From Leptasterias polaris (Eukaryota; Echinodermata; Asteroidea; Forcipulatida; Asteriidae), in contig JAZGTN010000089.1 of assembly GCA_037783415.1 (NCBI GenBank), positions 2,790,001 to 2,854,000 on the forward strand: a DNA stretch of 64,000 bases, read 5' to 3'. Of this stretch, positions 2,483 to 61,820 are shown one piece after another. The notes below the pieces were generated by a model. It was not told where the DNA came from. It saw only the letters and a program-made list of their open reading frames with translations, and made no database searches. The position numbers were made by a program, and so were the translations under genes. Every line of letters starts with the position of its first letter. Positions within the stretch are counted from its first letter, which is position 1.

Positions 2483-2487
2483 CAATA

Positions 2488-2805
2488 CAGGGGCGGATCT
2501 AGGACTTTTTTCAACCGGTGGGCACAACGGCGCACCCAGGATTCGTATTAGGGTGGCTAAAACAAATTTGGTGGGGTCCAGGGGCCGGCCTCTTGGCCCC
2601 TGGTGGGGTCCAGGGGCGAAGCCCCTCTGGGGGTCCAGGGGGAAACGCCCTCTGACGCTCTGAGCCTTTGGCGTTTTGAGGGGTGAACAATCAAGCCTCC
2701 ATGTGCCTAAAAACAGAGAAATAGACACACTTTTTAAGCACTTCAGATTCATATCATTCTTCTAAATTTACTGGCAAATCGTAGCATCGATGATGGGGTT
2801 CAGGG
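2488..2805. mobile_element. Left-only subterminal segment of composite element
   Basis: GC-rich block with repeated 'ggggtccagggg' words between the left tip and the left arm. The right side has only about 45 bp here (12746-12790), so the element is asymmetric. Confidence 0.6.
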
Positions 2806-3894
2806 GCCCCCGGGTAAAATTTGAAGACAAATATATATATAAATAGGCCCTATATATAACTTGACCCAGGATAAAAGCTATATGTATTTTTGGAAATTAG
2901 TGAAGAATAGGCCAAAAATTAAAAATAAATTAAGGGGTAAGTCCGGCATTATTTATTAAATTTGGGCTATATTTTTAGGCCTTAAAATGATACAGTAAGC
3001 TCTACCGATGCCTGTGTTTGTACTTAACTTGACCTAGGAAATAAGCTATATTATTGGAAATATTGACAATTGAAAAATAGGCAACAAATTAAAAGAAATC
3101 GAAAGGGGTAAGTCCAGCATCGTTTATTAAATTTGGACCATATTTCTATGTTTCGAGTTTAGGCTCTAGCATTATGCGTAGGTGCTAATGATGCCTTTTT
3201 ATGAAGCTTGACCCTTGGTCAGTTATACTATGTGAAATATTGATACTGATTTAAAAATTATTGTCTTAAGAACTTCAGATTTGGGGGGAGGCTGCTGTAA
3301 ACACTTTGAAGCCCGCCTTCATTCTGACGGATAATGACATGACCAATCCGTTAATTCACGTTGCAGAATTGTGCAGTAATTTGTAAAGGGAACAGTAGCC
3401 TGTGTGGTTAGGGCAGGTTTTCAGTTGTACTGACCCTGGTTCGAATCCCACTACTACCTATTATTTTCTTTTATTAAGTCACCGTTTTCACATTGTATTA
3501 TTTAAGTAGTGTTTAAAATCACCTTCAAACACCAACGGGCTCCGCGGGGCACTGGATTGTTCGCATGCGTGCAGTCCAGAGCTGGTACACCCGGTTCGAG
3601 CCCTACTCCTATCAATGTAAGGGACTTGACTTTTACTGCTGGCCGCTGTAATGGATTGGGGTTCCGTCATGTCTCTCCCCAAAGTGGGTAGGGTGATTAT
3701 TCCGGATGGGAAAGGACAAGGAGGGACCGGGAACTAGCCAATCCCTGAAGGGAACTACATGGGTGATCACCCTGCTGGTTCGACCAGACTTTGAGTCCCC
3801 TGAACGCTTGGTCGTCACTCTGACTAACTTTCTGCACAAATTTGTTTTAACTTCAAATTTCTTTTTAAGGTATTGACTGTTTCCTTATACAGTA
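2806..3894 (+). repeat. Left inverted arm of composite element
   Basis: About 1.09 kb closely matching the reverse complement of 11681-12745 with scattered substitutions and small indels. Conserved landmarks are 'taaggggtaagtccggcat', 'gatgcctttttatgaagc', the tRNA-like box at 3438 and 'ggacaaggagggaccgggaa'. Short ORFs here appear mirrored in the other arm simply because of the inversion. Confidence 0.9.
3393..3461 (+). other. tRNA-like Pol III box sequence in left arm
   Basis: An A-box-like TGTGTGGTTAGGGC at about 3400 is followed by a canonical B box GGTTCGAATCC at 3438-3448. Spacing fits a tRNA-derived SINE head, but no complete cloverleaf is evident. A second B-box-like GGTTCGAGCCC lies at 3593-3603. 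Confidence 0.6.
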
Positions 3895-4289
3895 TTTTTC
3901 TTAAAGTTAATTTTGAGGCAAGTTAGGGCGACTATTTCTGGATAGTGGCCGAAATGTATTGTTATATCCAGAATTATTCAAATTTGTTTATAAAAACAAA
4001 ATAGACAAATCACAAGGGGTATAAGTAAGTCCAGCATTTTTGTATCAAATTTTGAACAAAGTCACAAGGGGTAAGTCCGCAGTTTTATAAAATTTGGGTC
4101 AAAATTCGGAAAAGGCCGGTAGTAAGTTTGGCTGAAATTCGTCAGAAGGAAAGAACGGCAAGTTTTATCATTTGTATATAATTTTGGCTCAAATAACCTG
4201 AAACGTCAAACGAAACGAACAGCAAAGCTTACCCCCTTGTAATTTTAGCTCAAATTACTTGAAATGTCAAAAGGAATGGACAGCAAGGC
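3895..4289 (+). repeat. Left inter-arm spacer with degenerate 'aaacgtcaaaaggaatggacagc' repeats
   Basis: Contains the 'caaggggtaagtcc' words also found in the arms, then degenerate ~60-65-bp repeats (tagctcaaattacttgaaa..cgtcaaa..ggacagcaaggcttacccc). Related copies at 11455-11680 run in the same orientation, not inverted. Confidence 0.75.
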
Positions 4290-5243
4290 TTACCCCTTGT
4301 AATCGGCCGGGGGGAAAAATTGCAAATCGCCTGAAATTTGGTTTAGAGGTAAAACGGAGTGCGAGGAGCAGACAATTCTTGGTTTGAGTCGTCTACGTTG
4401 GCAACTTTTTAAGATATTGCCTGATTTTCGATATAACGATGCCTCAAAATCAAGATTAAAATGCATCTGTAGTCCCAACCCCTTATCCCAAGCACCTGTA
4501 ACTCGGCGACCGTCTTCTACATGCAACGGAGTCTCTTTGGTTTAATTTTGAGGCAAATCGGAGAGAAAAAGTTTTCGAGACTGAAAAAATGACTGGACTA
4601 CCCCCTTGCCGTTTTTGCCAAAATCGGCCGAAAAAATGTTGTTTCCAAATCGCCTGAAATTTGGTATAGAGGTAAAACGGAGTGCGAGGAGCAGAACATT
4701 CTTGATTTGAGTCGTCTACGTTGGCAACTTTTTAAGATATTGCCTGATTTTCGATATAACGATGCCTCAAAATCAAGATTAAAATGCATCTGTAGTCCCA
4801 ACCCCTTATCCCAAGCACCTGTAACTCGGCGACCGTCTTCTACATGCAACGGAGTCTCTTTGGTTTAATTTTGAGGCAAATCGGAGAGAAAAAGTTTTCG
4901 AGACTGAAAAAATGACTGGACTACCACCTTGCCGTTTTTGCCAAAATCGGCCGAAAAAATGTTGTTTCCAAATCGCCTGAAATTTGGTATAGAGGTAAAA
5001 CGGAGTGCGAGGAGCAGAACATTCTTGATTTGAGTCGTCTACGTTGGCAACGTTTTAAGATATTGCCTGATTTTCGATATAACGATGCCTCAAAATCAAG
5101 ATTAAAATGCATCTGTAGTCCCAACCCCTTATCCCAAGCACCTGTAACTCGGCGACCGTCTTCTACATGCAACGGAGTCTCTTTGGTTTAATTTTGAGGC
5201 AAATCGGAGAGAAAAAGTTTTCGAGACTGAAAAAATGACTGGA

Positions 5244-7062
5244 CTACCCCCTTGCCGTTTTTGCCAAAATCGGCCGAAAAAATGTTGTTTCCAAATCGCC
5301 TGAAATTTGGTATAGAGGTAAAACGGAGTGCGAGGAGCAGAACATTCTTGGTTTGAGTCGTCTACGTTGGCAACTTTTTAAGATATTGCCTGATTTTCGA
5401 TATAACGATGCCTCAAAATCAAGATTAAAATGCATCTGTGGTCCCAACCCCTTATCCCAAGCACCTGTAACTCGGCGACCGTCTTCTACATGCAACGGAG
5501 TCTCTTTAGTTTAATTTTGAGGCAAATCGGAGATAAAAGGTTTTCGAGACTGAAAAAATGACTGGACTACCACCCCCTTGCCGTTTTTGCCAAAATCGGC
5601 CGAAAAAATGTTGTTTCCAAATCGCCTGAAATTTGGTATAGAGGTAAAACGGAGTGCGAGGAGCAGAACATTCTTGGTTTGAGTCGTCTACGTTGGCAAC
5701 TTTTTAAGATATTGCCTGATTTTCGATATAACGATGCCTCAAAATCAAGATTAAAATGCATCTGTAGTCCCAACCCCTTATCCCAAGCACCTGTAACTCG
5801 GCGACCGTCTTCTACATGCAACGGAGTCTCTTTGGTTTAATTTTGAGGCAAATCGGAGAGAAAAAGTTTTCGAGACTGAAAAAATGACTGGACTACCCCC
5901 TTGCCGTTTTTTTTTAATCGCCTGAAATTTGGTATAGAGGTAAAACGGAGTGCGAGGAGCAGAACATTCTTGGTTTGAGTCGTCTACGTTGGCAACTTTT
6001 TAAGATATTGCCTGATTTTCGATATAACGATGCCTCAAAATCAAGATTAAAATGCATCTGTAGTCCCAACCCCTTATCCCAAGCACCTGTAACTCGGCGA
6101 CCGTCTTCTACATGCAACGGAGTCTCTTTGGTTTAATTTTGAGGCAAATCGGAGAGAAAAAGTTTTCGAGACTGAAAAAATGACTGGACTACCCCCTTGC
6201 CGTTTTTGCCAAAATCGGCCGAAAAAATGTTGTTTCCAAATCGCCTGAAATTTGGTATAGAGGTAAAACGGAGTGCGAGGAGCAGAACATTCTTGGTTTG
6301 AGTCGTCTACGTTGGCAACTTTTTAAGATATTGCCTGATTTTCGATATAACGATGCCTCAAAATCAAGATTAAAATGCATCTGTGGTCCCAACCCCTTAT
6401 CCCAAGCACCTGTAACTCGGCGACCGTCTTCTACATGCAACGGAGTCTCTTTAGTTTAATTTTGAGGCAAATCGGAGATAAAAGGTTTTCGAGACTGAAA
6501 AAATGACTGGACTACCACCCCCTTGCCGTTTTTGCCAAAATCGGCCGAAAAAATGTTGTTTCCAAATCGCCTGAAATTTGGTATAGAGGTAAAACGGAGT
6601 GCGAGGAGCAGAACATTCTTGGTTTGAGTCGTCTACGTTGGCAACTTTTTAAGATATTGCCTGATTTTCGATATAACGATGCCTCAAAATCAAGATTAAA
6701 ATGCATCTGTAGTCCCAACCCCTTATCCCAAGCACCTGTAACTCGGCGACCGTCTTCTACATGCAACGGAGTCTCTTTGGTTTAATTTTGAGGCAAATCG
6801 GAGAGAAAAAGTTTTCGAGACTGAAAAAATGACTGGACTACCCCCTTGCCGTTTTTTTTTAATCGCCTGAAATTTGGTATAGAGGTAAAACGGAGTGCGA
6901 GGAGCAGAACATTCTTGGTTTGAGTCGTCTACGTTGGCAACTTTTTAAGATATTGCCTGATTTTCGATATAACGATGCCTCAAAATCAAGATTAAAATGC
7001 ATCTGTAGTCCCAACCCCTTATCCCAAGCACCTGTAACTCGGCGACCGTCTTCTACATGCAA
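5244..7062. repeat. Higher-order repeat block (945-bp trimer x2)
   Basis: The series 323 + 326 + 295 bp at 5244-6188 is repeated with the same diagnostic substitutions (for example 'gtggtccc' in the first unit and 'accacccccttg' in the second) at 6189-7062 and onward. It is followed by three successive identical 295-bp units. Confidence 0.85.
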
Positions 7063-8977
7063 CGGAGTCTCTTTGGTTTAATTTTGAGGCAAATCGGAGA
7101 GAAAAAGTTTTCGAGACTGAAAAAATGACTGGACTACCCCCTTGCCGTTTTTTTTTAATCGCCTGAAATTTGGTATAGAGGTAAAACGGAGTGCGAGGAG
7201 CAGAACATTCTTGGTTTGAGTCGTCTACGTTGGCAACTTTTAAGATATTGCCTGATTTTCGATATAACGATGCCTCAAAATCAAGATTAAAATGCATCTG
7301 TGGTCCCAACCCCTTATCCCAAGCACCTGTAACTCGGCGACCGTCTTCTACATGCAACGGAGTCTCTTTGGTTTAATTTTGAGGCAAATCGGAGAGAAAA
7401 AGTTTTCGAGACTGAAAAAATGACTGGACTACCCCCTTGCCGTTTTTTTTTAATCGCCTGAAATTTGGTATAGAGGTAAAACGGAGTGCGAGGAGCAGAA
7501 CATTCTTGGTTTGAGTCGTCTACGTTGGCAACTTTTAAGATATTGCCTGATTTTCGATATAACGATGCCTCAAAATCAAGATTAAAATGCATCTGTGGTC
7601 CCAACCCCTTATCCCAAGCACCTGTAACTCGGCGACCGTCTTCTACATGCAACGGAGTCTCTTTGGTTTAATTTTGAGGCAAATCGGAGAGAAAAAGTTT
7701 TCGAGACTGAAAAAATGACTGGACTACCCCCTTGCCGTTTTTTTTTAATCGCCTGAAATTTGGTATAGAGGTAAAACGGAGTGCGAGGAGCAGAACATTC
7801 TTGGTTTGAGTCGTCTACGTTGGCAACTTTTAAGATATTGCCTGATTTTCGATATAACGATGCCTCAAAATCAAGATTAAAATGCATCTGTGGTCCCAAC
7901 CCCTTATCCCAAGCACCTGTAACTCGGCGACCGTCTTCTACATGCAACGGAGTCTCTTTGGTTTAATTTTGAGGCAAATCGGAGAGAAAAAGTTTTCGAG
8001 ACTGAAAAAATGACTGGACTACCACCCCCTTGCCGTTTTTGCCAAAATCGGCCGAAAAAATGTTGTTTCCAAATCGCCTGAAATTTGGTATAGAGGTAAA
8101 ACGGAGTGCGAGGAGCAGAACATTCTTGGTTTGAGTCGTCTACGTTGGCAACTTTTTAAGATATTGCCTGATTTTCGATATAACGATGCCTCAAAATCAA
8201 GATTAAAATGCATCTGTAGTCCCAACCCCTTATCCCAAGCACCTGTAACTCGGCGACCGTCTTCTACATGCAACGGAGTCTCTTTAGTTTAATTTTGAGG
8301 CAAATCGGAGATAAAAGGTTTTCGAGACTGAAAAAATGACTGGACTACCCCCTTGCCGTTTTTGCCAAAATCGGCCGAAAAAATGTTGTTTCCAAATCGC
8401 CTGAAATTTGGTATAGAGGTAAAACGGAGTGCGAGGAGCAGAACATTCTTGGTTTGAGTCGTCTACGTTGGCAACTTTTTAAGATATTGCTTGATTTTCG
8501 ATATAACGATGCCTCAAAATCAAGATTAAAATGCATCTGTAGTCCCAACCCCTTATCCCAAGCACCTGTAACTCGGCGACCGTCTTCTACATGCAACGGA
8601 GTCTCTTTGGTTTAATTTTGGGGCAAATCGGAGAGAAAAAGTTTTCGAGACTGAAAAAATGACTGCCGTTTTTGCCAAAATCGGCCGAAAAAATGTTGTT
8701 TCCACATCGCCTGAAATTTGGTACAGAGGTAAAACGGAGTGCGAGGAGCAGAAAACTCTTGGCTTGAGTCGACTACGTTGGCAACTTTTTAAGATATTGC
8801 CTGATTTTCGATATAACGATACCTCAAAATCAAGATTAAAATGCATCTGTAGTCCCAACCCCTTATCCCAAGCACCTGTAACTCGGCGACCGTCTTCTAC
8901 ATGCAACGGAGTCTCTTTAGTTTAATTTTGAGGCAAATCGGAGATAAAAGGTTTTCGAGACTGAAAAAATGACTGGA

Positions 8978-10570
8978 CTACCCCCTTGCCGTTTTTGCCA
9001 AAATCGGCCGAAAAAATGTTGTTTCCAAATCGCCTGAAATTTGGTATAGAGGTAAAACGGAGTGCGAGGAGCAGAACATTCTTGGTTTGAGTCGTCTACG
9101 TTGGCAACTTTTTAAGATATTGCTTGATTTTCGATATAACGATGCCTCAAAATCAAGATTAAAATGCATCTGTAGTCCCAACCCCTTATCCCAAGCACCT
9201 GTAACTCGGCGACCGTCTTCTACATGCAACGGAGGTCTCTTTGGTTTAATTTTGAGGCAAATCGGAGAGAAAAAGTTTTCGAGACTGAAAAAATGACTGC
9301 CGTTTTTGCCAAAATCGGCCGAAAAAATGTTGTTTCCAAATCGCCTGAAATTTGGTATAGAGGTAAAACGGAGTGCGAGGAGCAGAACATTCTTGGTTTG
9401 AGTCGTCTACGTTGGCAACTTTTTAAGATATTGCTTGATTTTCGATATAACGATGCCTCAAAATCAAGATTAAAATGCATCTGTAGTCCCAACCCCTTAT
9501 CCCAAGCACCTGTAACTCGGCGACCGTCTTCTACATGCAACGGAGTCTCTTTAGTTTAATTTTGAGGCAAATCGGAGATAAAAGGTTTTCGAGACTGAAA
9601 AAATGACTGGACTACCCCCTTGCCGTTTTTGCCAAAATCGGCCGAAAAAATGTTGTTTCCAAATCGCCTGAAATTTGGTATAGAGGTAAAACGGAGTGCG
9701 AGGAGCAGAACATTCTTGGTTTGAGTCGTCTACGTTGGCAACTTTTTAAGATATTGCCTGATTTTCGATATAACGATACCTCAAAATCAAGATTAAAATG
9801 CATCTGTAGTCCCAACCCCTTATCCCAAGCACCTGTAACTCGGCGACCGTCTTCTACATGCAACGGAGTCTCTTTAGTTTAATTTTGAGGCAAATCGGAG
9901 ATAAAAGGTTTTCGAGACTGAAAAAATGACTGGACTACCCCCTTGCCGTTTTTGCCAAAATCGGCCGAAAAAATGTTGTTTCCAAATCGCCTGAAATTTG
10001 GTATAGAGGTAAAACGGAGTGCGAGGAGCAGAACATTCTTGGTTTGAGTCGTCTACGTTGGCAACTTTTTAAGATATTGCTTGATTTTCGATATAACGAT
10101 GCCTCAAAATCAAGATTAAAATGCATCTGTAGTCCCAACCCCTTATCCCAAGCACCTGTAACTCGGCGACCGTCTTCTACATGCAACGGAGGTCTCTTTG
10201 GTTTAATTTTGAGGCAAATCGGAGAGAAAAAGTTTTCGAGACTGAAAAAATGACTGCCGTTTTTGCCAAAATCGGCCGAAAAAATGTTGTTTCCAAATCG
10301 CCTGAAATTTGGTATAGAGGTAAAACGGAGTGCGAGGAGCAGAACATTCTTGGTTTGAGTCGTCTACGTTGGCAACTTTTTAAGATATTGCTTGATTTTC
10401 GATATAACGATGCCTCAAAATCAAGATTAAAATGCATCTGTAGTCCCAACCCCTTATCCCAAGCACCTGTAACTCGGCGACCGTCTTCTACATGCAACGG
10501 AGTCTCTTTAGTTTAATTTTGAGGCAAATCGGAGATAAAAGGTTTTCGAGACTGAAAAAATGACTGGACT
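8978..10570. repeat. Second higher-order repeat block (~957 bp)
   Basis: Units at 8978-9934 (with the distinctive extra G in 'aacggaggtctc' at about 9233) are repeated at 9935 onward with the same marker at about 10190. This indicates segmental duplication of a three-unit block inside the array. Confidence 0.85.
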
Positions 10571-11210
10571 ACCCCCTTGCCGTTTTTGCCAAAATCGGCC
10601 GAAAAATGTTGTTTCCACATCGCCTGAAATTTGGTACAGAGGTAAAACGGAGTGCGGGGAGCAGAAAACTCTTGGCTTGAGTCGACTACGTTGGCAACTT
10701 TTTAAGATATTGCCTGATTTTCGATATAACGATGCCTCAAAATCAAGATTAAAATGCATCTGTGGTCCCAACCCCTTATCCCAAGTACCTGTAACTCGGC
10801 GACCGTCTTCTACATACAACGGAGTCTCTTTGGTTTAATTTTGAGGCAAATCGGAGAGAAAAAGTTTTCGAGACTGAAAAAATGACTGGACTACCCCCTT
10901 GCCGTTTTTGCCAAAATCGGCCGAAAAAATGTTGTTTCCACATCGCCTGAAATTTGGTACAGAGGTAAAACGGAGTGCGAGGAGCAGAAAACTCTTGGCT
11001 TGAGTCGACTACGTTGGCAACTTTTTAAGATATTGCCTGATTTTCGATATAACGATGCCTCAAAATCAAGATTAAAATGCATCTGTAGTCCCAACCCCTT
11101 ATCCCAAGCACCTGTAACTCGGCGACCGTCTTCTACATACAACGGAGTCTCTTTGGTTTAATTTTGAGGCAAATCGGAGAGAAAAAGTTTTCGAGACTGA
11201 AAAAATGACG

Positions 11211-11680
11211 GCTACTTCTAAAAACATACTTGAGGCGCAAACATTGATAACTTCAGTGTCCTAAAGGGTCTTATAGAGATTTAGGCCTACTATTAAACCA
11301 AAATAGACCAGTATACATAATTAGTCTTGCCCGAGCAGTTCTCTAAAGTTTAAAACCACGACAGCAATGCTGTAATTATTGTCCATAAAAATGGTAATAC
11401 TGCTCATGTTCAATTAAACTGAACATGTACTCATTACTAGCCTCAAACATTGGCTCATATAACATGAAACGTCAAAAGGATGGACAGCAAGGCTTAGAGG
11501 CCAACACCTTGTAATGTTAGCTGAAATTACTTGAAACGTCAAACTTACTGGACAGCAAGGCTACCCCTTGCGATTTTGGTTCATTTTACATGAAACGTCA
11601 AAAGGAATAGACAGCAAGGCCTACCCCTTGTGTTTTTAGCTCAGCTTACTTAAAACGTCAATAAGGAACGGACATCAAGG
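11211..11680 (+). repeat. Right inter-arm spacer with degenerate ~62-bp repeats
   Basis: 11211-11450 is unique AT-rich DNA. 11455-11680 has about four degenerate copies of 'acatgaaacgtcaaaaggaatgg' / 'acagcaaggctaccccttg'. They are in direct orientation relative to the copies at 4180-4310. Confidence 0.75.
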
Positions 11681-12745
11681 TACTGTATAAGGAAACAGTC
11701 AATACCTTAAAAAGAAATTTGAAGTTAAAACAAATTAATTTGTGCAGAAAGTTAGTCAGAGTGACGACCAAGCGTTCAGGGGACTCAAAGTCTGGTCTGA
11801 TCACCCATGTAGTTCCCTTCAGGGATTGGCTAGTTCCCGGTCCCTCCTTGTCCTTTCCCACCCGGAATAATCACCCTACCCACTTTGGGGAGAGACATGA
11901 CGGAACCCCAATCCATTACAGCGGCCAGCAGTAAAAGTCATGTCCCTTACATTGATAGGAGTAGGGCTCGAACCGGGTGTACCAGCTCTGGACTGCACGC
12001 ATGCGAACAATCCAGTGCACCGCGGTGCCCGTTGGTGTTTGAAGGTGATTTTAAACACTACTTAAATAATACATTGTGAAAACGGTGACTTAATAAAAGA
12101 AAATAATAGGTATTAGTGGGATTCGAACCAGGGTCAGTACGATTGAAAACCTGCCCTAACCACACAGGCTACTGTTCCCTTCACAAATTATTGCACAACT
12201 CTGCAATGTGAAGTACCGGATTGGTCGTGTCATTATCCGTCAGAATAAAGACGGACTTCAAAGTTGTTGTTTACAGCAGCCTCCCCGAAAAATGTTAAAA
12301 CAGTATCAATATTTCACATGTATAACTGACCAAGGGTCAAGCTTCATAAAAAGGCATCATTAGCACCTACGCTTAATGCTAGCAACCAACATAGAAACAT
12401 GGTCCAAATTTGATAAACGATGCCGGACTTTCCCCTTACGATTTCTTTTAATTGTTTGCCTATTTTTCAATTATCAATATTTCCAATATTTATTTTTATA
12501 GCTTGTTTCCTATGGTCAAGTTAAGTAAAAACACAGGCATCGGTAGAGCTTACTGTATCATTTTAAGGCCAACAGTCGCAACTTAAAAATGGCCCAAATT
12601 TAATAAACAATGCCGGACTTAATACCCCTTAATTTATTATTTATTTTTGCCCTATTCGTCACTAATTTCCAAAAATACATATATAGATTTTACCTAGGTC
12701 AAGTTTATGTATCTATATATTTTTTTTCTTCAAATTTTACACGGG
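11681..12745 (-). repeat. Right inverted arm of composite element
   Basis: Reverse-complement partner of 2806-3894. The B-box-like sequence appears here inverted at 12119-12129. Compared with the left arm it lacks 'accctgctggttc' near 11803 and has other small indels. Confidence 0.9.
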
Positions 12746-12795
12746 GGGAACTGGCCCCCACCCCCACCCCCACCCCTGCATCCGCGCCTGCAATA

Positions 12796-14356: not shown

Positions 14357-15076
14357 AATTATGAACTCTTACCCAGTTACTGAGAATTATGAACTCTTAC
14401 CCAGTTACTGAGAATTATGAACTCTTACCCAGTTACTGAGAATTATGAACTCTTACCCAGTTACTGAGAATTATGAACTCTTACCCAGTTACTGAGAATT
14501 ATGAACTCTTACCCAGTTACTGAGAATTATGAACTCTTACCCAGTTACTGAGAATTATGAACTCTTACCCAGTTACTGAGAATTATGAACTCTTACCCAG
14601 TTACTGAGAATTATGAACTCTTACCCAGTTACTGAGAATTATGAACTCTTACCCAGTTACTGAGAATTATGAACTCTTACCCAGTTACTGAGAATTATGA
14701 ACTCTTACCCAGTTACTGAGAATTATGAACTCTTACCCAGTTACTGAGAATTATGAACTCTTACCCAGTTACTGAGAATTATGAACTCTTACCCAGTTAC
14801 TGAGAATTATGAACTCTTACCCAGTTACTGAGAATTATGAACTCTTACCCAGTTACTGAGAATTATGAACTCTTACCCAGTTACTGAGAATTATGAACTC
14901 TTACCCAGTTACTGAGAATTATGAACTCTTACCCAGTTACTGAGAATTATGAACTCTTACCCAGTTACTGAGAATTATGAACTCTTACCCAGTTACTGAG
15001 AATTATGAACTCTTACCCAGTTACTGAGAATTATGAACTCTTACCCAGTTACTGAGAATTATGAACTCTTACCCAC
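14357..15076. repeat. 28-bp minisatellite, about 26 almost identical copies
   Basis: The unit reads AATTATGAACTCTTACCCAG then TTACTGAG. Copies are virtually perfect, with the first divergence in the last unit (acccacttac). Such homogeneity implies recent expansion or assembly from one unit. Confidence 0.98.
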
Positions 15077-15191
15077 TTACATGGACATGGACATGAAACA
15101 TGGAGGACGATCACGTGCTATAACTGTGTGAGAGTTAATAATTCCATGCGTGCAGCCACATGCCTGCTTTGATCATTACAACACGGCCCGT

Positions 15192-18560: not shown

Positions 18561-18777
18561 GACCAGGACAGTTGTTGAGTATAGCTGAACAAACTTGACT
18601 TGAACATTGTCTAGTCACCTGTGGATAGTGTGCTCTAGTCAACTATTTGGAACCAGCCACATGACCATGGTCACTTCCCTAGTTATTGTAGGGACTAATG
18701 ACTAAAGTCCAGTCACTAGACTTTAACTAGAAGTGTTGGCACTAGATTATCAGTGAGCATATGTAGCTAATAAACAA

Positions 18778-19181
18778 TGGTCGACCACGGTTCCTTGGTC
18801 GACTATGGTTCCTTGGTCAACCACGGTTCCTTGGTCGACTATGGTTCCTTGGTCAACTTTGGTTCATTGGTCGACTACGGTTCATTGGTCGACTACGGTT
18901 CCTTGGTCGATCACGGTTCCTTGGTCGACTACGGTTCCTTGGTCGATCACGGTTCCTTGGTCGACTACGGTTCCTTGGTCAACCACAGTTCCTTGGTCGA
19001 CTACGGTTCCTTGGTCGACTACGGTTCCTTGGTCAACCACAGTTCCTTGGTCGACTACGGTTCCTTGGTCGACTACGGTTCCTTGGTTGAATTCAGTTCC
19101 TTGGTCAACCACAGTTCCTTGGTCAACCACAGTTCCTTGGTTGAATTCAGTTCCTTGGTCAACTACAACGGTTCCTTGTCA
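18778..19181. repeat. 18-bp minisatellite
   Basis: About 22 copies of an 18-bp unit GGTTCCTTGGTCGACTAC. As 18 is a multiple of three, several frames stay open on both strands (for example repeating VDYGSL). The frames begin and end with the array and are not regarded as genes. Many units contain GTCGAC. Confidence 0.95.
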
Positions 19182-19760
19182 GACCTTGCTACCAGAGGAT
19201 CAGGACAAATCCAAGGCAATGACAAACATGATGACAATGACGATTGATGCAAACACTTCAATCCAAAAAGTCAATCATGGAATCATAGGCCATCCCTTGC
19301 ACACTTCGCTGATATGGTCATTGTAGATCCTGCTTGTACAAATCACTGTTGGGTCACACAGTTCATCCTTCACTTGCTGTAATTTACATAATCTCCTAGT
19401 TTACGAAACTCCAAAAAACAAAAGTGGTCCTGACGATATGTTGATCACCAAAACATCCAAAGAACAAAGTCTGGGGGAAACGTTTACTCAACAAATTTTG
19501 CAATTTCATTTTTAAAAAGCAGCCAGATGTCACTGTCACAAAAAAGCTCCCAAAACAATCCTTGCGTTTAAAATTAAAGAAGGGGTCGGGAGTTGGCAGA
19601 TGAGTGCAGACACAAGGTGTTTTGTTTTTTGAATTTAATATTAACCACCATGACAGGAAGATTGTCGAGCTTAAGGTTTAGCACAGTTTGATTGGAAGTG
19701 GACACCAGGGACTGATGAGCTGGCGAGTTGGTGGACCCTCTCAGAGGGTGGTATGTTGGA
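19182..19760 (-). other. COP1 3' flank or 3' UTR
   Basis: Lies directly after the COP1 stop codon on the minus strand. No poly(A) signal could be assigned with confidence. Confidence 0.4.
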
Positions 19761-19823: not shown

Positions 19824-22800
19824 CTGAGGACATAAAAATAAAAAAACAACAACGAGGATCAAAACTTGGAAATCTAACTCACTAAACATTTACATTTTAC
19901 TGTAAACCTTCCTAAATCATACAGAATCCAATCAGAATAAACAATTGTAGACTCTGATAAGAATGTTTTGATTAAGTCTTGCCCTATTACAATGTATGAT
20001 ATACTCCATGCTTCCAGAGTCCTGCATGAAAATTCTGCCCCCAAATCGAGGCTCTACACCCCAAATCGAGGCTCTACACCCACATGGCTTACCGTGCAAA
20101 AGACAAATATTAGTAGTGGCAACTACAAACAATGAAACCAATGTATTTAGGCAACATTCATAGCTATTAAACATCATCTGCTGTGAGTATTGTACTTGCT
20201 GATTACTATCGCTAGATATCAAGATCTTAGACTTACCGTTCTCCAAGCAACAGCGCTGACAAACTCATTACTATCGCTAGATATCAAGATCTTAGACTTA
20301 CCGTTCTCCAAGCAACAGCGCTGACAAACTCATTACTATCGCTAGATATCAAGATCTTAGACTTACCGTTCTCCAAGCAACAGCGCTGACAAACTCATTA
20401 GCATCTTCTTCCTTCTTCTCTTTGTCCTACCCAGAAATAAACACATTCAGTTTATTTGTATAATGATCACCGTCAAACCATAAAGTCATTGTTCCATCCA
20501 ATGGAAGGTAAATCATTGTGATATTTGAAGCACTTAACACTTGCATCACCGTAAAGCATTTGATACTCTAACCCAAGCAGCCTGTAGATTTGTGCCGAAG
20601 GACTCGGAACTTAGCACTGAGTTATACAATGCTAGCACACATCAATGTAACAGTAAAACCTTGGTAATAATCTTCATCCTCAATGCAATTCTAACATTTA
20701 TAAATCTGTTTTCTCATTTTGCATACACAGTTAGGGAACAATTTTGTTCAGCAATGTTGCATGGCAAAATATTTAGACTTAATACGTTTTTTGCACAAAC
20801 TTTATATTAGCATTGTGTCAAAAATTACGATTTTTGAATAGCAACTGATACAGCACATTCGAAACGTTATTGTAAAATGCTATGTAAGTACTAGTTATTG
20901 TTATTATTAAAAGAACTGTCTCTCTTCAGAGGCTCCTTCAACTCACCAGAACACTCCTGACAGTGTCAAACTTGAACGTGACTAACTGCTTGGACAGTCC
21001 TTTATAGTACAGATAGAGGGAGTTGTTCTCACTGCCGCAGGCAATGTAGTCATCGTTTGCAGCTAACCCTACAAAGTTCTTATCGTTTGTGTGACCACGG
21101 AATGTGCGTAAACAATGGGGTTTATCCACGGACCACAGCTTGAGCTGACTATCCGTAGACCTGCATAGGAAAGGTTTAGATTACTCCGTGTTAAAAGGAC
21201 AAATAGATTCCAATAGATAGTTCCTGATAAATGCTATTTTTACTTGTAATTTGGGTTCTGGCTTTGAGCTGGGTCCAGCGTATACCTTTTTATACACAGC
21301 AAAGAGGTTTATCGACCAAGCATGCAGGATAAATGTTCCGTATGTGGTTTTTATGCAAAATGCATAGTTCTGTATTCATTGAATGATATCATTTCCGGTA
21401 AAGACAGCCGACTGTATGACTTCACGTGGGAACTATTTATACACTGGCTTTCATAATACTTATCTATTCTGATTATGTGGCCATGTTTAAATGTGCGATA
21501 TAAACAGTCAGAAGTGATTAAACATGACCTGAAGTTATTGAGTCAAAAGAGGGCGCTATCAGATGACTGAACAGATTCACCGCATTTTAACTCCCTTATT
21601 ATTAGCCTACAAATTTCAACCAAATGGATGCTCATGTTTTTTTAGAAACTGCATGGTTATTTCCTTCATATATAATAGGTTTCAAGCAATGAATGTGAGA
21701 ACAAAAGGTTCAAAAAAATGTTCATAGATGTTTGAGCATGGTACCACTACAGCAGCAGCAACGTGTAGTGCTGACTAAGTGTTTTCCTTAAGGGCCTCGT
21801 CACATTTTTTTTTGTGAACTAGGAAGCAACCTCTGCTCCTCAAGAACAATTTTCCCCGACAAAATCTTAACATCCAAGAGAAAATTGAGTCCAATTGAAA
21901 TATACCTCATGCATTGACGTCATCACGTCACCATCTTACAGGTAAGATGATGATGCAACAATGGAAAACGCAAATCTATGTATGTGCAGCACACAGGATT
22001 GGCCAATGAGTAACCTTCTTTTGACCTCTAGCCAAGGGACCCCAACTCAAAACGACGCCATGTGCATAATGTCTATTGAAGATTGCCTGGTTGCCTATAA
22101 ATTGCCGCTTGTGACACAGCCCATGGACAGGATATTTAGTCTAGATAGTACTGGGCCCAATTTCATGGCTCTGCTTACCGTAAGCAAAGAATCGGCACTT
22201 ACGGAAGCAGGGAATTCTGCGCTTTTTCAGTGTATTTCACGGGTTAGCAGGGAATTTTGCTTGTGGGCATGCGTAACCCACTTTGCAAGGCATTCTACGC
22301 TTACACAGCTAGCGCAGAAATTCGGCGCTTGCTCGGTAAGCAAAGAATGGTTATCGCAAGCGCAGAATTTGGCGGTAAGCAGAGCCATGAAATTGGGTAC
22401 TGGAGACTTACGCAGACACAATCTCCTCTGAGTTGACGAACTTGGTGTAGGACACGGCCTTCTTGTGTCCCTTGAATACATTGAGGGGTTGCTTGGGATA
22501 CCTCAGGTCGTAGTAGTGGACGCAGTGATCGGCTGAGCCAAAGGCTAATGAGTACATTTTGGAGGGGTTGAATTTCACGCAGCAGACGTTGGCCTTCGCC
22601 TCTAGACATGCTACGGAGCGTTCTTGATTCGTAGACCAAAGTTTCACTGCAAACAAAACCATACAAGCCACGATATAAATAAAGGCAGATCCAAGATGAG
22701 CATCAATCTTAATTTCTAAGCGAAATGTGATACTGCTGCCAACTCATCTTAAAGGTAGGCTCATAGATGGGTTTTTGTCAATGAAATGCTGAAGTACGGC

Positions 22801-28800: not shown

Positions 28801-31800
28801 CAAACAATATTTAATTGTCTGACGTTTCGACCCTAGCTTCTGTTACACTTGTATACCTGTGTATGTGTGTTGTGATGTCATTTAGCCTTCGAGAATGACT
28901 CTGCTAGGGTCGAAACATCAGTCTATTAACTTTTTTTTGCAATATACCTTTGATTGAAAGCTTTCATTTTGACGTTGGTACTTACTGGGTGATATATCAC
29001 TCTGTCTGATACTGAAGTAGCACTGCTCTAGATCTTCCAGATGATGATGAAGACGTTTCCTTCTAGACGCTAACGTGGTGTCTAACCACTGCTGTCTACC
29101 ACCCTGGGGAAATAAACACAGACAGCCAAATCAGTCTTTCGTTACCCCTCATTCAATCTGAACATAAAGAGTGCTTATAAATCAATATGAAACATGTTTT
29201 TGGAATGTAGATGGGCAATTTCATTTTTACTCGCATAATTTTGACCGCCGGATATAAGATTGTCAGTACTGGCATAATAATAATAATAATAATATCGAAG
29301 TCTTATATAGCGCACGTATCTACCAAACAAGGTACTCAAGGCGCTGAGTATATACATACTTTCAGAAAGATAGGTTATTGCAGTGATGAAAATCTGAGAC
29401 CCAATTATTTAGCACCTTATAAGGGTTTACAAGGTGCTACGGCGCATTAAGCAGCCACAACCAGGAACACCGGGGCGAACCCCTTCTCTTTTCGATAAGT
29501 GCACTGGGTTCTTTTACGTGCATTCACAACGCACGGGACCAACGGCTTTACGTCCCATCCGAAGGACGAAGCATGTGGTTAAGTGTCTTGCTTAAGGACA
29601 CAAATGTCACGACTGGGACTCGAACCCACACTCTGCTGATCAGAAACACCAGAGCTTGAGTTCGGTGCTCTTAACCACTCGGCCACGACATTCCATAAGG
29701 ATGTAACGTTCTACAACCTTCTACCTTTTTGTCAATGCTAGATTTACTCCGAAGGCATGTGTTTCAATTCCCATGCATAATTAAATTTCATACATTGACT
29801 TGTGAATGCCAGAAGGAAACAATAAAACAATCACACTTTTACACTCAGTTTTCTTGAAACACGAACTGCTTACAACCTTTGGGCGGGCACTTTTGTTCAA
29901 GTCCTTCTGCCAGGCATATGACGAGATATATGGCATACAGAATTTTGTGTGTGATTTGATTAAGTGAAATGTGACTAAGCACAAGTTTCAATTGATTGTG
30001 TAATCAATCTTATTCAGACAGTCAGATTTCTGACAGCTGTGGTTGAAGTAGCCATGGAAGAACTGACTTTTTTCTGATCAAGGAGCTCTCTATGCACGAA
30101 AAGAGTATACCTTGTTGATCAGAGTGCATTCCAGTCTGATGCACATATAATAAAGGGCCACGTTACATAATTCGAGCTGAGACTGCTTTCTTGCTTAATT
30201 TTGCTTAGCAAGAAATTGATAAGCATTTTTCTGCTTAAGCAGTTCTTTGAAATTGGGCCCAGCTATGGCCAAGTTTGCACAAGGACCATTTGTCAACTCG
30301 AGGCCGATATTGCCTTATACCCAGCACATGTTTTTGAACATGAGTACCAGTTAATATTGGCCGCTACTCGACAAAAGGTCCTTGTGCAAACTTGGCCATA
30401 CATTGTAGCTGGTCCCAATTTCAAAGAGCTGTTTAAGCAGAACAAATTTGCCTCACAATTTCCCACTAAACAAAAATAAGTAGAAACCAGTCACAGACCG
30501 TATTGTGTTACATGGTATTTTGGCTGGTAACCTAATTCTCTAGTAAGCAACAATTTAGTTTTCGCTTAGCCACTGTTTCTGCTTAGAAGCAGCTCTTCAT
30601 AAAATTGATCCCTGGTTTGAAAAAAACAAAACTGCCATTATTATTTTAGGGTTTTTGATTCCTTTTGAGGCAACATTATTATTTTCACAGGATGATAGAA
30701 AATAACATTAAACATACTTGTACATTGATGTTAAAAAAAGAAGCTGCCTTTATTCCCTGACAGCGAAAGAAATTCTTAGAGGCACTCAATGTGTAACTAT
30801 TCTTGTTCAGGTACTTGTACAGAGTCGGCGCCCTCAAGCCATTTCTGGCTCTAGTGTCATCAAATCAATTCAAATCAATCCAACATACAGCTTGCCAAAG
30901 TATTTGCAAGTTTAGGAACAAATTACTAACTTGGACAACAAAATTAACGGGACAGCAAGGCTGAGGGGGGAAAACAGAACAGCTGCCGTTGCTAGAGGTA
31001 AAGATTTTCAGTATCATGGGCCTTTGATCAAATATAGGCAAAATTGTTTTTCATCATTAATCAAACTTGACTTCCCTTTTCAACCATTTATAGATTATGT
31101 TTCTGTATAATGATATGCGCAGGGCTGAGTTTGCATAAACCAAATTTGCATAATTCATGAATGGATTATTCAACACTTTTTTTTCTGGTGAAAATGTCTG
31201 GGAAAATAGCACAAAACAATAATTATTGTTTTGTTTAGGAAAGTACAGTATGATGACATGGGAATCACAAGAAATTTTTCATTTTTGAAATATTTTGGTT
31301 AAATGGAACTAAGCTAATTGCAGCTGTTTAGCTGTCTAACAGGGACAAACTTTACGCACCACAAATATTCGGAAGTTTGCCGAAATCCAACTTACGTTTT
31401 TACTGCCATTGAAGCCCTCCTGAGGGCCATCTGTCTTGGAAGAATTTTCTAGTTTGATTTTTGGTTGTTCATTACTGCAGAAGCGGATAAATAAAAAACA
31501 ACACTCATGGTTAAACTTCAGTCACTCAAGAAGCAAACTCGTATCAGTCATTGAAACTTACCAATCAAAGTAGTACCAAACTTCCTACTGACCAACTATT
31601 CAAAAATCATTTGATTGAGTTTGTATGGTTAAGACACTTGTCCAGCCTCAAATTTTTGAAATCAATTTGGCTTATCGTACAAATAAAATTGAGAGATAAG
31701 TATAATTTGAAGCTTTGCATGGGGAAGGAAGTGAGATTTGCAGGAGTCAACCATGGTGGTTCTGAGAAGAACCAGAGGGGAGATGAGTCTCGATATTTTG

Positions 31801-32837: not shown

Positions 32838-32887
<50 letters not shown>

Positions 32888-61330: not shown

Positions 61331-61741
61331 TTACACAAACAATGCACACTCAGTAGTAGTCTGGTACTGGTCAGACAGTGCTTCACCGTTGTCGAAGTCT
61401 CCCGACGCATAGTCCGAGAAAATATCGACAAGCATGCGTTTTTCGTCCCCTACTGACCGTGCATACCAAGGCTTAAGAATTTTGCTTTTGGTGCGAATTA
61501 CACACACACAAAGACCATCTTGCAGCTCATCTCTGATAAATTTTACTCTGAAAAAACCGTGTCCAGATTCAGAAGACGCCACACGAGATGCGTGGGTCAG
61601 CAACGCGGCAATGAAGACCAACTCGGCAATGAAGACCAACTCGACACGTTTGAAAGAACTCCACATGCGTGGGTCAGCAACGCGGCAATGAAGACCAACT
61701 CGGCAATGAAGACCAACTCGACACGTTTGAAAGAACTCCAC
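61331..61741 (-). CDS. Unidentified ORF inside TIR element
   Basis: A 136-codon minus-strand frame. Its first ~55 codons are translated 77-bp repeat (FFQTCRVGLHCRV type) and are probably not ancestral. The remaining ~80 codons (VKFIRDELQDGLCVCVIRTK, SKILKPWYARSVGDEKRMLV, ending TECALFV) have normal composition and look like a protein C-terminus, but I recognise no family. It may be a transposase remnant, a captured host exon or chance. An upstream exon boundary could lie where the repeat begins (about 61570-61590). Confidence 0.3.
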   Translation of the reverse strand: MEFFQTCRVGLHCRVGLHCRVADPRMWSSFKRVELVFIAELVFIAALLTHASRVASSESGHGFFRVKFIRDELQDGLCVCVIRTKSKILKPWYARSVGDEKRMLVDIFSDYASGDFDNGEALSDQYQTTTECALFV

Positions 61742-61820
61742 ATGCGTGGGTCAGCAACGCGGCAATGAAGACCAACTCGGCAATGAAGACCAACTCGACA
61801 CGTTTGAAAGAACTCCACAG
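61590..61820. repeat. 77-bp tandem triplication with internal 17-bp duplication
   Basis: Three copies start at 61590, 61667 and 61744. Each contains GGCAATGAAGACCAACTC twice in tandem, then 'gacacgtttgaaagaactcc'. Because 77 is not divisible by three, the same peptide appears in successive frames. Confidence 0.97.

Follow-up and report, generated by a model that had tools for sequence, protein, structure and literature searches.

How do satellite arrays come to lie at scattered, non-homologous places of a genome? This old question is raised by a stretch of 64,000 nucleotides from the sea star Leptasterias polaris (assembly GCA_037783415.1, contig JAZGTN010000089.1, positions 2,790,001 to 2,854,000 of the forward strand), here called the window, in which a tandem array of a 323-bp satellite sits between the inverted arms of a foldback transposon. 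An initial annotation had outlined this unit of ~10.3 kb at 2483..12795 and considered it either a vehicle which disperses a satellite or a transposon in which a satellite had expanded. Both readings fit the data reported here, as the array travels with the copies and each array is homogenised separately. Taken as a whole, the element is very probably a non-autonomous, hAT5-like foldback that is moved in trans and carries a locally homogenised satellite array.

The foldback element and its copies

The insertion comprises 10,303 bp (2488-12790) and is framed by two copies of CAATA, the target site duplication (TSD), at 2483..2487 and 12791..12795 (both + strand); the boundaries set initially were exact. 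The left terminal inverted repeat CAGGGGCGGATCTAGG (2488..2503, + strand) is a hAT-like tip of a type that was also found on a miniature inverted-repeat transposable element (MITE), L037, and at the 3' end of a hAT copy at C17. The right one is CAGGCGCGGATGCAGG (12775..12790, - strand). Across the window the tip-derived pattern matched only at the two tips of the element, exactly in both cases, and shuffled sequences gave 0.50 matches on average when up to three mismatches were allowed.

The order of modules is left tip domain, arm, spacer, about two 60-bp repeats, satellite array, spacer, about four 60-bp repeats, inverted arm and right tip. The left tip domain (2488..2806, + strand; about 306-319 bp) is common to an abundant MITE-like family, and the first ~306 bp of the left end, the tip itself aside, have no partner at the right end. 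The left arm (2794..3894, + strand) pairs with the right arm (11681..12760, - strand) at 87.6% identity over 1,133 columns; among 40 random pairs of window stretches the best inverted match was 134 bp long. The left inner spacer (3895..4178, + strand) is followed by the first set of 60-bp direct repeats (about two copies, 4179..4303, + strand) and the array of 21.8 units of 323 bp (4323..11209, + strand), which covers ~6.9 kb, has every unit in one orientation and consists of segments that are 95-100% identical. Then come the right inner spacer (11210..11449, + strand), whose array-adjoining sequence recurs in other copies, about four 60-bp repeats oriented like the left set (11450..11680, + strand) and, beyond the right arm, the right terminal region, which starts within the arm (12729..12790, - strand). 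Self-comparison of the element confirmed inverted arms of 1.1 kb and a direct array in the centre, as had been described at the outset. The view that the arms are unique and the repeats internal held for the main array; the arms, however, contain an imperfect internal repeat (about 76%), and 60-bp repeats lie between arms and array. Because the longest stop-to-stop frame of the element has 142 codons, no transposase frame is apparent in it. Rfam scans of the window and of the element returned no families, and exact 23- and 21-base arm and satellite patterns had no match in viral contigs. A distant blastn search retrieved 18 phage records which covered 1-2% of the query and were taken as chance.

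Does the element have relatives? The genome (629.7 Mb, 334 contigs) was searched and only the best candidates were scored, i.e. 40 of 1514 for the arm, 40 of 1417 for the left tip domain and 22 of 369 for the satellite. With the best 40 of 1514 candidates scored, the left arm had at least 76 matches. Nine further loci were fetched, eight of them apparent inverted pairs, plus one tandem cluster at C7. In all nine, arm sequence flanks the core on both sides, and in eight the 323-bp satellite or a 356-bp variant lies between the arms at the same place. As the initial annotation had anticipated, the arms surround different numbers of units, from about 1.1 kb of satellite to about 58 units. Copy C89b (C89:4545989) has 25.5 units, C140a (C140:1996k) 28.9 and C140b (C140:2211k, 2210977-2228068) 40.7. 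Satellite hits numbered 12 in the C101 copy, 56 in the C111 copy, 58 in C89c (C89:3679k) and five, over 1.1 kb, in C55a (C55:2282k); the C15 copy has 5.5 units of the 356-bp variant. The repeat thus forms long head-to-tail arrays with concerted evolution (21.8 units here, up to about 58 elsewhere), as is characteristic of a satellite. In the ninth locus, C55b (C55:830k), no 323-bp satellite was seen; its core is built from 157 copies of a 54-bp repeat (8.5 kb) and about 57 copies of 60-bp repeats, and the motif of the 54-bp array resembles one contained in the left inner spacer of the window element.

The longest copy, at C89:1713696-1766329, spans 52.6 kb and was read in three short stretches (8.4 kb including flanks). 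In the middle stretch Tandem Repeats Finder (TRF) reported a 1,451-bp repeat with about two periods and 100% match, in which 590 bp of arm are combined with a tip fragment, 60-bp repeats and pieces of satellite. Search hits for additional arm and satellite pieces are spread over the 52.6-kb span. This copy represents an extreme case: in the stretch read, its interior has turned into a higher-order satellite built from pieces of the element.

The C7 cluster (C7:889000-898000) consists of about four head-to-tail units of ~2.9 kb with tip domain, arm, 60-bp repeats and spacer motifs.

Target duplications, empty sites and shared ends

Left-type (L) and right-type (R) tips were both recognised in four fetched foldback copies. 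In all four the longest duplication match was exactly 5 bp: CAATA for the window element (10,303 bp), GTAAG for C89b at C89:4545989 (12,498 bp), ACCTC for C140a at C140:1996k (17,410 bp) and ATGAA for the copy at C89:1713696-1766329 (52,634 bp). The chance that two random 5-mers of the window match is 0.0015. Including the MITE and the C17 hAT copy, the duplication was exactly 5 bp in 6/6 elements with an L- and an R-type tip.

On its left side the window element is flanked by sequence of a dispersed repeat, and empty target sites were found in other genomic copies of this sequence. A query made of the joined flanks retrieved six genomic copies which extend ten bases past the junction and one which extends just past it (74-84%). 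In all seven fetched paralogues ATCTGCAATA is followed by direct continuation of the sequence with a single CAATA; these are the empty sites that the initial annotation had proposed to look for. To the right of the junction the homology is limited to about 10-25 bases. An earlier comparison of joined flanks with the fetched loci only had given no spanning match for either the window element or C140a. The flanks of C89b are part of a 60-bp repeat array, and when joined they align across the junction with the surrounding repeats.

Which transposase might move the element? In a genome search the hAT dimerisation domain had 64 matches. About 800 bp of 3' flank were fetched at 20 of these, picked mostly for long frames, and at two of the 20 loci the tip CCTGGATCCGCCCCTG was present exactly, about 500 bp beyond the domain. 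The hAT copy at C17:1709357-1714763 is 5,407 bp long, has the tips CAGCGGCGGATACAGG and CCTGGATCCGCCCCTG and is flanked by the TSD TAGAG. When its three open pieces were compared with Pfam, one matched Dimer_Tnp_hAT (3.4e-10), another DUF4371 (1.2e-15) and the third had no match. The left tip corresponds to the 3' end of hAT copies over 33 bp at 91% in the MITE and over 36 bp at 83% in the window element, and the G-rich 5' end of the C17 copy resembles the right tip type and the right terminal region of the window element. The hAT-like character first read from the tips is thus borne out, and the proposed search for an autonomous partner led to a copy that bears transposase domains, has the same tips and is flanked by a 5-bp duplication. 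At a hAT locus on C36 one tip only was present, and the 5.8 kb examined did not reveal the second end. A PDB search with one transposase piece produced four matches at E 0.95-0.98, which were taken as chance.

According to the available part of a published account, hAT duplications usually are 8 bp long, groups with 5, 6 and 7 bp are on record, and 5 bp marks hAT5 (PMC12730594). The four foldback copies with both tips, the MITE and the hAT copy depart from the usual, non-defining 8 bp and all have the 5 bp of hAT5. Their terminal inverted repeats are shared with an element that encodes hAT transposase domains, as expected of hAT members. The 8-10-bp duplications of Mutator-type foldbacks differ from the 5 bp of the four foldback copies with both tips. 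In addition, arms of ~1.1 kb lie inside a unit with target duplications and empty sites, as in a foldback element. Because the same tips and a 5-bp duplication are present on the MITE and on the hAT copy with transposase domains, we classify the window element as a non-autonomous hAT5-like foldback. To judge from the shared ends, a transposase of the C17 type would move it in trans.

The left tip domain alone is common, with at least 102 matches when the best 40 of 1417 candidates were scored. Of these 40 places 34 lie outside known foldback copies (83-87%), and many continue into subterminal tandem repeats of their own. MITE L037 (902 bp) has the same tip types and is flanked by the TSD ATGAC; an empty site was found at one paralogue (94.9%). 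Positions 1-321 of the MITE align with the first 319 bp of the window element at 83.6% and the final 59 bp of the MITE with the right end at 79%. In addition, 19 bp of its right subterminal sequence recur, inverted, directly after the element's left tip domain (2807-2825, + strand). Because of these matches the foldback looks like a MITE-type left end plus an inverted copy of the right end. The arms would probably have originated when the right end was duplicated in inverted form and combined with a MITE-like left tip domain, as the 19-bp inverted copy suggests. Judged by the order of their inner modules, three copies (C140b, C55b and the one at C89:4137k) have an R-type tip where others have an L-type. 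These copies would also agree with another course of events, in which the element was at first symmetric (R/R) and acquired the left domain afterwards.

A relative with the same left end was seen from C105:919431 onward. It has 5.8 copies of a 194-bp subterminal repeat in its left domain, and its right tip was not recognised.

Arms and satellite array

In the window element the inner part of the arms is 98.3% alike and the outer part 89.7%. A comparison between copies was made with those arm pieces that spanned 85% or more of the query (22 inner, 17 outer), others being dropped; outer pieces were mostly 91-97% alike and inner pieces mostly 95-98%. Gene conversion from arm to arm within a copy is not needed to account for this, since the inner part is more alike across the whole family. 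The nearest piece was a copy's own other arm only for C140b, C15, C55b, partly C111, and the inner left arm of the window element. The outer right arm of the window element was only 89.6-92.0% like the 16 other outer pieces, for which a cause was not found.

Each arm carries two motifs which resemble the B box of tRNA and RNA polymerase III (Pol III) genes: GGTTCGAATCC (3438..3448, + strand) and GGTTCGAGCCC (3593..3603, + strand) in the left arm, and those at 11964..11974 and 12119..12129 (both - strand) in the right arm. The window contains seven such motifs, with 0.06 expected; apart from the four in the arms they are at 29616, 33561 and 43594. The inner arm may contain sequence derived from a tRNA-type short interspersed nuclear element (SINE). 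A search for tRNA genes found none. With relaxed settings ARAGORN made two low-scoring calls in the arm and seven beside the satellite array at C76, which were taken as noise. At C76:1003000-1006200 the sequence adjoining the array resembles, by eye, the head of a tRNA-derived SINE, followed by an arm piece. A further motif of 20 bases, GGACTTACCCCTTGTAATTT, was searched with up to five substitutions and had five hits in the window (2944, 3115, 4078, 4286 and 12425). All five are within arms, spacer and 60-bp repeats of the element; 20 shuffled windows gave 0-3 hits. An old repeat motif seems to be common to these parts of the element.

Did the satellite arise from the element's own sequence? 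The matches of the satellite unit with the left spacer (15 bases, exact) and with the arm end were at the edge of shuffled controls (0/300 and 1/300; 2/2000), and two overlapping tiles elsewhere in the window scored higher (37 and 35 versus 30). For the right spacer 15/300 shuffles were counted. The 60-bp repeat matched the satellite no better than chance (246/300 shuffles); it matched the left spacer better than chance (0/300), but not the left arm (74/300).

Next, the units of different arrays were compared. A full unit was defined as a match to the reference from position 6 or less to position 318 or more; 234 units qualified and partial ones were dropped. For 231 of these all nearest neighbours were within their own array. 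Three units behaved otherwise: one from the window (of 16), one from C76 (of two) and the only unit from C55a, which is without a partner. Unit identity within arrays averaged 98.6% (lowest 95.1%) and between arrays 95.3% (highest 99.1%). Because 231/234 units are nearest to their own array, we conclude that the arrays are homogenised locally within each copy. Unit and arm identities together indicate that divergence from copy to copy is about equal for arrays and arms. The two segments that close the window array on the right are 99% identical to each other and mostly 96-97% identical to the remainder, as would be expected if exchange is rarer at the edges. Directly after the array TAATGTGTATAAACGTAAATC or a close variant is present in C111, C140a, C140b, C89c, C15 and the copy at C89:4137k, and the sequence that follows it is common to the window element, too. 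Since the post-array sequence is shared among copies, the array was probably inherited from a common ancestor of the copies rather than acquired separately by each.

These observations suggest the following course. The array lies within the transposition unit, at a position common to the copies, and is carried to new sites, at least some units of it, as four insertions with matched tips and duplications show. Between moves it would change its length and be homogenised in each copy by unequal exchange or replication slippage; this is suggested by the array-specific variants.

Elsewhere in the window several other repeats were observed. A 28-bp tandem repeat is present in 25.9 copies at 14357-15080 (99% match), and an 18-bp repeat in 21.6 copies at 18757-19326, within an open frame of 189 codons with repeated WSTTVP. 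Tandem arrays with 100% match are located at 61588-61819 (77 bp, 3.0 copies) and 20202-20400 (65 bp, 3.1 copies). A run of 48 G occupies 32839-32886.

Competing explanations and known systems

Several observations weigh against the proposed hAT5-like foldback with a carried array. The four insertions demonstrate transport of at least some units, not of a full array of 7-50 kb. The C76 array is without full arms in 3.2-kb stretches that include the array ends (arm pieces of 75% and 85%); at the C78 array, in stretches of the same length, only short 60-bp pieces were seen on one side and none on the other. These two arrays show that the satellite, or old copies, can occur where there is no intact element. 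Arms and array, which the initial annotation had treated as one unit, recur together in other copies; the C76 and C78 arrays, without full arms in the stretches fetched, in part run counter to this unity. Copy C140b lacks a duplication and ends in an R-type tip on either side; its flanks are mutually inverted over ~840 bp, which looks like an inverted duplication through the end of the element or like an effect of assembly. The other fetched copies had one or both tips unrecognised and are uninformative on duplication. No paralogue that spans the C140a junction was among 73 joined-flank matches. The open pieces of the C17 hAT copy are in different frames. The placement of the family near hAT5 is provisional and was made by duplication length and shared tips.

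How much of an array is moved at a time? One could propose that a hAT transposase moves satellite domains of 7 to 50 kb whole, as cut-and-paste units, that the arms promote growth and turnover of arrays by inter-arm exchange, and that the family plants and regrows arrays across chromosomes (323-, 356-, 54- and 60-bp repeats and the 1,451-bp higher-order repeat). We put this forward tentatively and are inclined to doubt it. A quite plausible alternative, if short of probable, is that the element moves only when short and the 7-50-kb arrays grow after insertion, so that seeds rather than satellites are dispersed. The homogeneity and array-specificity of the units fit such growth after insertion, as does the very recent local growth that the 1,451-bp repeat with its 100% match implies for the stretch read of the 52.6-kb copy; C55a, with only about 1.1 kb of satellite, fits a short mover. 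On the other hand, many units are present in all four copies with L- and R-type tips and duplications, and none has a single unit, a weak argument with four copies from best candidates only.

More remote explanations do without a carried array or without a hAT element. An independent satellite could have been captured, with arms on either side by chance or by nested insertions. The C76 and C78 arrays agree with this, yet the array is oriented alike with respect to the left tip domain in 7/8 copies which show both (the exception is the 52.6-kb copy), the array-adjoining sequence is homologous across copies, and in four copies a 5-bp duplication encloses the unit as a whole. We therefore consider capture very unlikely. 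The structure might also be a segmental inverted duplication or an artefact of assembly instead of a transposon. Here the C140b palindrome, which is 98.1% alike over arm and about 840 bp of flank, and a 4.6-kb direct duplicate at 99.9% in the C15 copy come to mind; these near-identical duplicates could be real or assembly effects. For the window copy, the 5-bp duplication, the empty site in 7/7 fetched paralogues and the copies at unrelated loci favour transposition and, barring raw reads at odds with the assembly, refute this reading; as a general explanation it is extremely improbable. A Helentron-type element like the satellite carriers of oysters has central satellite-like arrays between two flanking modules, as is typical of the oyster elements in the sections available; the same sections describe them as lacking target duplication (PMC7492417). 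Here, 5-bp duplications are present in four copies and the tips match a hAT copy. Because of the duplications this reading is refuted, and the chance left to it is practically nil.

With the hAT5-like foldback as the preferred explanation, a single genome offers a MITE, a transposase-bearing hAT copy, foldbacks with varied arrays, empty sites and a 52.6-kb unit with a higher-order repeat. In such a family, ends of hAT5-like type can enclose units larger than 10 kb with a mostly satellite interior, and with this set of copies the transition from transposon to satellite could be dated for each copy in turn.

How does the family compare with known elements? Sea urchin TU foldback elements have tandem repeats in the outer domain. 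They share the foldback structure with the element described here and differ in that its array is central. The initial annotation had stressed this difference; it is weaker than claimed, because the C105 relative carries tandem repeats in its outer domain. Measured against the tandem repeats within the inverted repeats or outer domain of TU or Tetris elements, the picture is mixed: the arms contain the imperfect internal repeat and this relative the 194-bp repeat, and the main array is placed between the arms.

The hAT5 group (Kapitonov and Jurka, 2007, as cited in PMC12730594) shares the 5-bp duplications, and the likely mover of the present element has hAT domains; the foldback copies themselves are non-autonomous, 10-52 kb long, and have long inverted arms and a satellite core. 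Tetris of Drosophila virilis is a foldback without transposase whose tandem repeats grow into long satellite arrays. As far as the accessible text describes it, Tetris shares its ends with the MITE DAIBAM, as the window element does with L037. Its repeats are in the inverted repeats and not between arms; its duplications are 8-10 bp, Mutator was suggested and no autonomous copy was found, whereas here the duplication is 5 bp and a hAT copy has the same tips (PMC4079207). In Xenopus, miDNA4 is an inverted-repeat element with one monomer or an array of variable length (Scalvenzi and Pollet, 2014, as reviewed in PMC12628747). The review describes it as a Tc1/mariner MITE, and the passages on it there do not mention long arms; the element here is of hAT type. 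Cg_HINE of the Pacific oyster, non-autonomous as well, disperses satellite-like central arrays of up to 29 monomers; it is of Helentron type without target duplication, and its arrays mostly have up to five monomers, at least in the sections available, unlike the element here (PMC7492417). In the Atlantic cod, gadMor-hAT-1784 is a hAT-derived, non-autonomous MITE with long inverted repeats that contain tandem repeats. These inverted repeats have about 600 bp and themselves consist of 167-169-bp tandem repeats; a central satellite array is not described in the part of the article available (PMC12368964). Satellites inside transposons are already established by Tetris, miDNA4, Cg_HINE and the cod hAT MITE. 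In the literature on foldbacks, hAT elements, MITEs and satellites (titles and abstract openings, with few subscription papers) we found no description of a hAT foldback with a central satellite. What we rate as new is the apparent combination, in one genome, of hAT5-like ends, long inverted arms, a variable central array and a transposase copy with the same ends.

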